Shown here in pieces: positions 42,197 through 44,836 of a stretch of 49,170 bases of DNA. The notes beneath the pieces were generated by a model. It made no database searches. It saw only the letters and a list, made by a program, of their open reading frames with translations, and was not told the origin of the DNA. The stretch is from Myxococcales bacterium (GTDB lineage Bacteria; Myxococcota_A; Polyangia; Fen-1088), in the NCBI GenBank assembly GCA_025350815.1, contig JANXXE010000060.1, forward strand, positions 1 to 49,170, in the 5' to 3' direction. The first letter of the stretch is position 1. Each line of letters starts with the position of its first letter. The translations under genes were made by a program, and so were the position numbers.

Positions 42197-43621
42197 TTAG
42201 ATCTCGAATCCCAGGGTCGACAGCTCGGCTTCCAGCCGTTCGACTTCCTTGATCACCTGCGCTGGCGCGGGCCCGCCTACCAGCGTGCGGGCGTTGACCG
42301 CGCGGACCGCATCGAGGGCACCCAGTGCCTCGGACGACAGCTCGGGCGCGATCGCCGGAAGGTCAGCCACGGGGACGTCGCGGACGGACACGCCTTTGCC
42401 CTCGGCGTGCTTGACCAGTTGACCCACTATCTCGTGGGCGCGCCGGAAAGGCATGCCGCGCGACACCAGGTGCTCGGCCAGATCCGTCGCGCCCAGCGCC
42501 GGATCATCCGCCGCCGCTTTCATGCGTTCGACCTTGAATTCGAGGCCCGCGATCAGACGCGGCAAGACCGCCAGAGAAACCTGCGCGGTCTCGATGGCGT
42601 CATAGAAGGGCTCCTGCGTCTCTTGCAGATCCTTGTTGTAGGCCAGGGTCAGGCCCTTCGATATCGTCAACAGCGCGACCACGTCGCCGATCAGGCGCCC
42701 GGGTTTTGCGCGCAGAAGTTCCGCGATGTCGGGGTTGCGCTTCTGCGGCATGAGGGAGCTGCCGGAACAGTGGCCCTCGCCCAGGCGTGCGAAACCGAAT
42801 TCCGTCGTGGACCACAGGACCAGCTCTTCGCCAAAGCGCGACAGGTGGACACCCATCAGTGCCGCCGCGAACGCCAGCTCGGCGGCAAAGTCCCGATCCG
42901 ACACGGCATCCAGACTGTTGCGGGTCGGGCCACGGAATCCCAGCGCGTCGGACGTGCGCTGCCGGTCTATGGGCAAGCCGGTGGCAGCCAGCGCGCCCGA
43001 GCCCAGTGGGCACTCGGCCGCCCGTCGAGCCGCGTCCACGAAACGGCCGCGATCCCGTCCCAGCATCTCGGCGTAGGCCAGCAGGTGGTGCCCGAGGGTG
43101 ACGGCCTGCGCCCGCTGAAGGTGCGTGTAACCGGGCAGGAGATCTCCGGCGTGCTGCCGCGCGCGTCGGCACAGGGCCACGCGCGCGCCGTCAATGCCCG
43201 CGATGATCGCCGTGGCGGCGCGCAGGGCATGAAGACGCAGATCCGTGGCCACCTGATCATTGCGGCTGCGCGCGGTGTGCAGGCGTCGGCCGGCATCTCC
43301 AATCAGCGCTGTCAGGCGGCTTTCGACATTCATGTGAATGTCTTCCAGCGCCGGATCCAAGGCGCGCTCGCCGCGATCGAATTCGCCCGCCACCTGGTCG
43401 AGACCCGAGACGATCTTGTCGGCGTCGTCTGCCGCGATGAGTCCCACCGCCGCCAGCATGCGCGCGTGCGCCTGGCTGCCGCGCACGTCATCCCACAGCA
43501 AGCGACGGTCAAAACTGACGCTTGCGTTCAGCGCCGAGGCCGCATCGTCCATCGCGGTCGAAAACCGCGCGCCGCGCCCGCCTGACGGCGAGGGCACAGA
43601 ATCCGAATCCTTCTTGGTCAT
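42197..43621 (-). CDS. argH: argininosuccinate lyase
   Basis: Final step of arginine biosynthesis: argininosuccinate to arginine and fumarate. The 474-residue protein of the fumarase/aspartase superfamily has SVSFDRRLLWDDVRGSQAHA, MNVESRLTALIGDAGRRLHTARSRNDQVATDL (in part: HTARSRNDQV), HLQRAQAVTLGHHLLAY with the catalytic His, and the signature GSSLMPQKRNPD with the catalytic Ser. The N-terminus has an extra ~12 residues (KKDSDSVPSPSGG). ATG at 43621. It converges on the PEGA gene with a 6-base gap. No other arg genes are nearby. Confidence 0.95.
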   Translation of the reverse strand: MTKKDSDSVPSPSGGRGARFSTAMDDAASALNASVSFDRRLLWDDVRGSQAHARMLAAVGLIAADDADKIVSGLDQVAGEFDRGERALDPALEDIHMNVESRLTALIGDAGRRLHTARSRNDQVATDLRLHALRAATAIIAGIDGARVALCRRARQHAGDLLPGYTHLQRAQAVTLGHHLLAYAEMLGRDRGRFVDAARRAAECPLGSGALAATGLPIDRQRTSDALGFRGPTRNSLDAVSDRDFAAELAFAAALMGVHLSRFGEELVLWSTTEFGFARLGEGHCSGSSLMPQKRNPDIAELLRAKPGRLIGDVVALLTISKGLTLAYNKDLQETQEPFYDAIETAQVSLAVLPRLIAGLEFKVERMKAAADDPALGATDLAEHLVSRGMPFRRAHEIVGQLVKHAEGKGVSVRDVPVADLPAIAPELSSEALGALDAVRAVNARTLVGGPAPAQVIKEVERLEAELSTLGFEI

Positions 43622-43722
43622 GCTGGGCAGGAGATTACGCCAAAACCTGGTCGGAATAGCCGGTATGCGGTACGATGAAAAGGCATCCGCGACCGATTGG
43701 CTACAGAAGGAGGAAAGAACGC

Positions 43723-43806
43723 ATGGGAAAACGCACTCTCACGACCGCGCTGTACATCCTTCGCCTCCCAACCCGACCAGGATACAAGGAGCCCTGTCGG
43801 CGGTAG
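43723..43806 (+). CDS. possible 27-residue small protein inside the candidate transcript
   Basis: An ATG at 43723 opens a 27-codon frame (MGKRTLTTALYILRLPTRPG and a basic tail) ending with TAG at 43804-43806. It is preceded by an unusually good ribosome binding site, AAGGAGG, at a 9-base spacing, better than that of most genes here. The peptide is basic and has a short hydrophobic patch; I recognise no family. It could be a leader peptide or a small protein, or chance. Confidence 0.28.
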   Translation: MGKRTLTTALYILRLPTRPGYKEPCRR

Positions 43807-43956
43807 CCACAAGTTCGGATTTGGCAAGCTCTTCAGCCGCGAGCCGATAGCTGAGCTCAAGATGACGGGTGGACCGGCCAGGCTCGCGCCGCAAGCCACC
43901 CTTTGATTGGCGGTGTCCCTTTGGGTCGCTAGCCACGACCAGTCCAGTAGCGGATG

Positions 43957-43998
43957 GCGCGCCGGTGAGTGAAGACTCCTCCCGGCGCGCTTTTTTTT
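43957..43998 (+). terminator. intrinsic terminator on the plus strand
   Basis: Perfect 9-bp stem GCGCGCCGG (43957-43965) with CCGGCGCGC (43982-43990), a loop that itself contains GAGT-GAAG-ACTC, and then eight consecutive T (43991-43998). The T-tract side shows it acts on plus-strand transcription; the minus-strand Fic gene would read A residues first. Confidence 0.85.
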
Positions 43999-44016
43999 GC
44001 GCCGATGCCCCGGCGA

Positions 44017-44787
44017 CTAGCTGGCGCGACGCAGCTTGTTCAGACCGGCCACTTCGTCGAAGAAGCGCGCGGTCGTTTCGATGCTGTTTTCGAGCGACTC
44101 AATGATGAGGTTGATGAGCCCGTCGTTCTCGTGCCGCAGCACCTCGTAGTAGCGCTGCCGCTCGATGGAATGGATCACGGCCGGCAGGTAGCCATGCTGA
44201 ATCAAGATGTAGTTTGTCAGCAGGCGCGCGACCTTGCCCGAGTTCTTCGTCCACGGGTAGGCCGACAGAAGTTTGAACTGCGCACGCGCCGCTGCGGCGA
44301 TGGGGTGCAGGCTGCGGAATTCCGCAGATTCCAACCATTCCCCAAGCTTGCGCATCTTGTAGCCGATCTTTTCGGGCGCCGCGATCTCGTGATAGTAGAG
44401 CCGGTGCAGCGGGTTCTCCCGTCGGTAGGGGCAGCCCTTGGCGACGGCGTCCGGGGTCAACATGGCGTAGATCTTCCGGATCAGCTCGAGGTCGATCTCG
44501 GGGGGCTTCTTCGAAATGCTGGCGGAACGAATGAAGTCGACCGCCAGTTTGTGGTTCTTGACCTCTTCGTACATCGGGATCAACGTGACATCGCTGATGA
44601 TGCGCGTGTCGACGGCGGCTTTGAGCTCGGAATATGACAGCACGACGCCCTCAAGAGCGTGGTCGTGGAAGATCCAGGACACGTCCAGACGGTCCTGATA
44701 ATCCTTCGTTATCTTTTCTGGGAAGGTGGCGGTCTTCACCCGGACCGCCTCCATCTTGGCATCGAGCTCGAATAACTTACTGTCCAT
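44017..44787 (-). CDS. Fic-fold protein with a degenerate catalytic motif
   Basis: A 256-residue Fic/DOC-family protein. Typical Fic enzymes transfer AMP or similar groups using HPFx(D/E)GNGRxxR. Here the aligned segment is SAYPWTKNSGKVARLLTNYI (175-194): the catalytic His is Tyr177 and the GNGR anion-binding part is NSGK. The fold is otherwise well kept, with the preceding helix AAAARAQFKLL and the following LLTNYILIQHGYLPAVIH. The N-terminal stretch SWIFHDHALEG (37-47) resembles the inhibitory helix motif with Glu46. AAGGAG precedes the ATG at 44787, and a good promoter lies 50 bases upstream. Probably not a canonical AMP transferase. Confidence 0.82.
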   Translation of the reverse strand: MDSKLFELDAKMEAVRVKTATFPEKITKDYQDRLDVSWIFHDHALEGVVLSYSELKAAVDTRIISDVTLIPMYEEVKNHKLAVDFIRSASISKKPPEIDLELIRKIYAMLTPDAVAKGCPYRRENPLHRLYYHEIAAPEKIGYKMRKLGEWLESAEFRSLHPIAAAARAQFKLLSAYPWTKNSGKVARLLTNYILIQHGYLPAVIHSIERQRYYEVLRHENDGLINLIIESLENSIETTARFFDEVAGLNKLRRAS

Positions 44788-44836
44788 CACGGCTCCTTAC
44801 GCGGACGCGATCAGGTCGGATACCCGTCGGCACCTT

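Follow-up and report, generated by a model that had tools for sequence, protein, structure and literature searches.

Introduction

Coding small RNAs are common and make up at least ~10% of sRNAs (PMC5521070). VcdRP of Vibrio cholerae is a dual-function sRNA in which a base-pairing segment acts and the 29-aa peptide VcdP binds citrate synthase (PMC8672173). In the aapA mRNAs of the Helicobacter pylori aapA/IsoA systems, a stable 5′-3′ interaction blocks the translation of a 30-aa toxin, and the Shine-Dalgarno (SD) sequence is masked by CU-rich elements (PMC6733600). Another RNA with a short internal frame is tmRNA (RF00023), which has paired 5′ and 3′ ends and pseudoknot-like contacts.

The locus described here lies in a window of 49,170 nucleotides of a Myxococcales bacterium (the whole of the DNA analysed; contig JANXXE010000060.1, assembly GCA_025350815.1). 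An original prediction, made from this DNA alone, read the interval between argH and a Fic-family gene as an independent small RNA. In the best explanation, to which I give a probability of roughly 0.55, it is an independent gene whose ~315-nt structured transcript would double as a small mRNA, making it a dual-function RNA restricted to a single myxobacterial family. It would share with VcdRP the small RNA gene, a frame of almost equal length, and possibly a double output. In contrast to VcdRP, to which no sequence relation is known, its dominant feature is a fold that is predicted to close on itself and to include a kissing loop.

A putative autonomous transcription unit between two minus-strand genes

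As had been stated originally, both flanking protein genes are on the minus strand, and their Pfam domains confirm them as argH (42197-43621; PF00206, Lyase_1, and PF14698, ASL_C2) and a Fic-family gene (44017-44790; PF02661). In the latter, YPWTKNSGKVAR takes the place of HPFx(D/E)GN(G/K)R, the motif usual in Fic proteins, and the relatives carry the same altered motif. Thus, this Fic-family gene may be inactive or a variant. Between the two genes, ~43682-43998 of the plus strand is predicted from the sequence and its relatives to be an autonomous transcription unit. A putative promoter is located at 43647-43676, with a -35-like CTGGTC (43647-43652), an 18-nt spacer, and a -10-like TACGAT (43671-43676). 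The pattern [CG]TGG[CT][CG]-N18-TANNNT is present in all eight homologues, its first base lying 39-42 nt ahead of the first base of the closing helix P1. It matches once per 98,340 positions (the whole window, both strands), a count that indicates specificity and is no independent test, since the pattern was derived from the same sequences.

At the other end, an intrinsic terminator (43957-43998, plus strand) consists of a 9-bp GC stem, GCGCGCCGG-(16-nt loop)-CCGGCGCGC at 43957-43990, and eight T residues at 43991-43998. The perfect GC-rich hairpin and T8 tract ending a plus-strand unit at 43998, as first noticed, agree with the sequence and recur in 7/7 complete homologues, with one C-G to A-U change in the stem. 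An automated scan found neither feature: the promoter does not match the consensus, and the simple terminator search missed 43957-43998 because its loop limit was 8 nt. Since the promoter sits directly before P1, transcription is predicted to start at the base of P1, and the end is placed at the terminator. A plus-strand RNA of ~200-350 nt ending at ~43998 had been expected; its 3′ end stands, while the start can now be placed near 43682 from the -10 element, giving a predicted transcript of ~315 nt (43682-43998). As in other dual-function sRNAs, the locus is intergenic with its own predicted promoter (8/8) and terminator (7/7).

Is this one of the known RNAs? No match to 6S, SRP, tmRNA, RNase P, or a riboswitch had been recognised originally, and an Rfam 15 scan of the window agreed, with zero matches and a best sub-threshold score of 16 bits against a gathering threshold of 43. 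6S RNA was rejected, as no covariance-model match was found at the locus and the genome has its 6S RNA on another contig (57.5 bits). In the case of tmRNA, neither a covariance-model nor an ARAGORN match was found here, and the tmRNA of this genome is on another contig (161 bits). Thus, the locus does not represent a diverged 6S RNA or tmRNA. With tmRNA it shares the predicted pairing of the two ends, a short frame inside, and pseudoknot-like contacts, but its frame has its own SD sequence and ATG. Nor does a same-strand gene lie downstream, as it would for a riboswitch or leader: a terminator ends the unit at 43998, the flanking genes are on the opposite strand, and the neighbours vary in two genomes (G002 and G005).

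Distribution of the element and its neighbours

Whole-genome searches found the element in 8/18 genomes and 5/7 genera of the window's own family (G000, G001, G002, G003, G005, G007, G008, and G011). The remaining ten genomes of the family, belonging to the genera g5 and g7, gave no convincing match, and in several of them other genes occupy the DNA upstream of argH. The pattern AAGGAGG..ATGRSNAARCG was searched in 290 genomes of the class, where true matches were confined to the family. The multi-copy matches in the family f8 were rejected, as their start belongs to an unrelated MAKRPRWLKPDAVYCETQRT protein that is likely to be a transposase. In the f8 genus g21 (L092-L094; G106, G040, and G032), genes or gene fragments that start with MAKRPRWLKPDAVYCETQRT occur in several copies after AAGGAGGCCCC; some are truncated to 7 or 27 codons, and they resemble a transposase family. 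In a scan of 84,980 species, true matches were found only in five MAGs (L142, L161, L162, L182, and L199), whose peptides are identical to those of G007, G001, G008, G003, and G011, respectively. No homologue was found in the viral contigs, phages, and plasmids searched.

The covariance model R1, built on the 5′ half, detected no convincing further homologue in 318 genomes of the class and 379 of the phylum. Its best extra match (G171, 25.8 bits) was rejected, being the start of a 107-aa protein with the 3′ half absent, and the phylum scan gave two further candidate matches (L272 and L273, E 0.003-0.004). As a control of sensitivity, a model built without G002, the most divergent member, recovered G002 at 66.6 bits. 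Thus, a lack of sensitivity is an unlikely reason for the narrow range, while still more divergent forms are possible. Apart from these, the leader of a prepilin-like gene in L101 (G092, ~1460-1530), GGAGCCGCAATTGGCTCCACAACAAGGAGG, is similar to the 5′ block of the element as found in G002, probably by chance.

The element adjoins the start of argH in 7/8 genomes, and the order argH, RNA element, Fic gene is retained in five relatives. In G002 (genus g3), ~0.8 kb and a gene for a small secreted protein separate the element from argH. In G005, the right-hand neighbour differs and the Fic gene is not adjacent. The RNA has the same form in both cases. Could the element be a minus-strand cis-regulatory leader of argH or of a Fic-argH unit, such as an arginine-responsive element? 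Its place beside argH would agree with this, as would inverted repeats that fold on either strand, the alignment z-scores being alike (-6.96 for the minus and -7.22 for the plus strand). On the other hand, the T-run, the promoter, and the SD sequence with its frame are all on the plus strand, G-U pairs exceed A-C pairs 9 to 2 in the chosen helices, a gene intervenes in G002, and the argininosuccinate lyase genes of g5, g7, and other families lack the element. A leader function is thus highly improbable, and the link between the element and argH is, on comparison of these loci, positional only.

In the genus g5 (L039, L040, and L043), which lacks the RNA, a carbamoyltransferase-like gene (MKILGINHSNDAAAALVVDG...) adjoins argH. 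A similar-looking gene is found in G005 (L070) further out, past the RNA. The locus has perhaps been exchanged.

A predicted closed 5′-3′ fold with a kissing loop

The single-sequence fold of the interval is no more stable than shuffled sequences (z -0.73; 22/100 shuffles equally good), and single-sequence folding of the interval is uninformative. An alignment (A1) was made of the seven complete copies among the eight homologues. RNAalifold gave -64.0 kcal/mol for it, against -32.6 ± 4.3 kcal/mol in column shuffles (z -7.2; 0/100), and the fold remained significant when the terminator was left out (z -5.6; 0/100). In P1, P2, and the terminator taken together, 97% of cells are paired and seven pairs have changes on both sides; none of 500 shuffles attains any of five measures.

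P1 would close the RNA, its 5′ strand lying at 43685-43700 and its 3′ strand at 43939-43955 of the plus strand. P1a pairs 43685-43690 with 43950-43955 and has compensatory changes, from U-A to G-C in G002 and from A-U to G-C in two relatives. P1b pairs 43695-43700 with 43939-43944; it is nearly invariant and paired in all seven complete copies. P2 (43773-43800), a hairpin with a bulge, lies within the final third of the frame. In P2, 95% of cells are paired, and three pairs (seven cells) are changed on both sides. Its covariation score was reached by 0/500 shuffles and drops sharply when the helix is slid by one column. The 11-nt loop, ATACAAGGAGC in the window, displays AAGGAG in all copies except G002.

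Three more hairpins form the 3′ domain. The loop of P3 (43827-43857) contains GCGAGCC (43839-43845), and that of P4 (43867-43901) contains GGCTCGC (43881-43887), complementary to it over 7 bp, so that the two loops may kiss. The P3 stem is rebuilt with different letters in relatives, while GAGCC is kept in its loop in 6/7 complete homologues. The loop complement is UGAGCC/GGCUCA in G011, a compensatory C-G to U-A change, and GCGAG/CUCGC in G002. All 42 counted loop-loop pairs are Watson-Crick, a descriptive total only, as is the count of G-U and A-C pairs, since the helices were chosen by hand. P3 occurs in most of the separate minimum-energy folds, with weak stability support (mean z -1.4). 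P4 (mean z -2.0) and P5 (43908-43935, with a bulged A ahead of the 3′ strand; mean z -2.9) are clearly stable, and both are found in the single-sequence folds of 7/7. The 3′ domain alone gave no significant RNAalifold signal in a MAFFT alignment (z -0.25), probably owing to misalignment of P3 and P4 wherever their stems are wholly rewritten. In the genus g4 (L073 and L076; G003 and G008), additional sequence containing a separate GC hairpin (GGGGAGACCCTCAAGGGTCTTTTGCCCC) is inserted between the frame and P3; in G003, the remaining fold is retained.

At least three stem-loops had been proposed upstream of the terminator. Those at 43827-43857 and 43867-43901 correspond to P3 and P4, which are found again in relatives. 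No conservation was seen for the one at 43924-43940, whose bases fall in P5 and the 3′ strand of P1b. It had also been proposed to look for covariation in relatives that keep argH beside the interval, and there the hairpins and the terminator are kept with compensatory changes. As modelled from these sequences, the fold is a closed 5′-3′ structure with a kissing loop and not a row of independent hairpins.

The 27-codon frame and its predicted peptide

An SD sequence, AAGGAGG (43707-43713, plus strand), is identical in 8/8 genomes and lies 9 nt before the ATG at 43723 of a 27-codon frame, MGKRTLTTALYILRLPTRPGYKEPCRR (43723-43806, stop codon TAG). The very good ribosome binding site and frame recognised originally are thus confirmed and conserved in all eight. 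The peptide is 27 aa in seven genomes and 28 aa in G002. Is the frame translated, or is the locus a purely non-coding structured RNA, with the SD sequence and the frame as by-products of RNA constraint? P2 covaries within the frame and alone accounts for much of the conserved C-terminal half, and AAGGAG is present at both the SD sequence and the P2 loop, as the non-coding reading would have it. The codon statistics are also weak. Scoring of the peptide substitutions by BLOSUM was not significant (190/1000 shuffles), and the changes by codon position (170/194/208) have a weak third-position bias. Synonymous single-change codons do exceed expectation, in favour of coding (62 against 42), albeit over pairs that are not independent.

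In contrast, the SD sequence, the ATG, the open frame, and the place of the stop are all retained. The stop codon, 3 nt past P2, switches among TAG, TAA, and TGA at the equivalent place, although this conservation is shared among related sequences and thus represents few independent events (about five lineages). The sole length change in the frame is of three bases, in frame, and the frames stay open in all seven sequences after only 4% of column shuffles. The frame is probably translated, the peptide may be under selection, and the purely non-coding reading is distinctly unlikely. The conserved frame and binding site make the dual role as RNA and small protein, suggested at the outset as a possibility, a reasonable one.

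What kind of peptide would it be? With a charge of +4 to +7 and a GRAVY of -0.56 to -1.73, the predicted peptides would be basic and hydrophilic; they have no membrane segment, and no match was found in Pfam or NCBIfam. A small ribosomal protein was considered, as the N-terminus (MSKRT) is like that of L34 and the length like that of bTHX, and was rejected for want of a match in either database. The locus may alternatively be a small mRNA only, whose product is the peptide and whose fold only controls translation and stability, like the type I toxin mRNAs. The long-distance 5′-3′ pairing of aapA/hok-like mRNAs is present here in P1a and P1b, and the closure round a frame of ~27 codons resembles the aapA mRNAs (PMC6733600). 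A CCTCCT shortly after the stop codon in G001, G005, G007, and G011 is a CU-rich element that could mask the SD sequence. In contrast to the type I toxins, the peptide is not hydrophobic, and P1 itself leaves the SD sequence uncovered. No sigma-70-like antisense promoter was found on the minus strand of seven copies by a consensus scan, although a like scan also missed the plus-strand promoter. Furthermore, the extra covarying hairpins and the kissing loop distinguish this RNA from aapA, and such a large pseudoknotted 3′ domain seems beyond the needs of translation control. The small-mRNA reading is rather unlikely.

Proposed working and significance

Comparison among the relatives shows the locus to be a real and new gene for a structured RNA, specific to this lineage and carrying a probable small coding frame. 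The original reading as an independent small RNA is supported, since what could be tested in sequences all held: the hairpins and the terminator kept with compensatory changes, the lack of an Rfam match, and the conserved frame and ribosome binding site. The predicted promoter, terminator, closing helix, P2, P4, P5, the complement of the P3 and P4 loops, and the SD sequence with its frame are each supported by the comparison.

In the dual-function reading, transcription would begin at P1, and ribosomes would first translate the basic 27-aa peptide co-transcriptionally, each translating ribosome melting P2. Once the 3′ end is made, P1 and the kissing loop would close the RNA, protecting its ends and limiting the access of ribosomes. 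Translation and the RNA fold may thus exclude each other or alternate. Outside the frame, the covarying 3′ domain (P3-P5) is conserved and may act separately by binding a protein, a ligand, or an RNA. In a tentative and rather unlikely extension, coding and folding would form one switch: reading of the 27-codon frame would require P2 to be melted, the closed form with P1 and the kissing loop would shut ribosomes out, and the RNA would serve in turn as an mRNA and as a structured effector, with no downstream gene.

Structured and dual-function small RNAs are already known as a kind. What appears to be new is the family and the combination of a closed 5′-3′ fold, a kissing loop, and a covarying in-frame hairpin; a literature search of limited extent found no paper describing this RNA in Myxococcota. 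The finding would add a family of RNA genes that is supported by comparison, has a structure model at hand, and occurs in a narrow, defined range of hosts. Its coding sequence is also a covarying hairpin enclosed by a 5′-3′ helix, and how translation and folding share it may be tested in a 315-nt construct. If the alternation of states is true, this RNA would represent a self-gated class of dual-function RNA not previously described.
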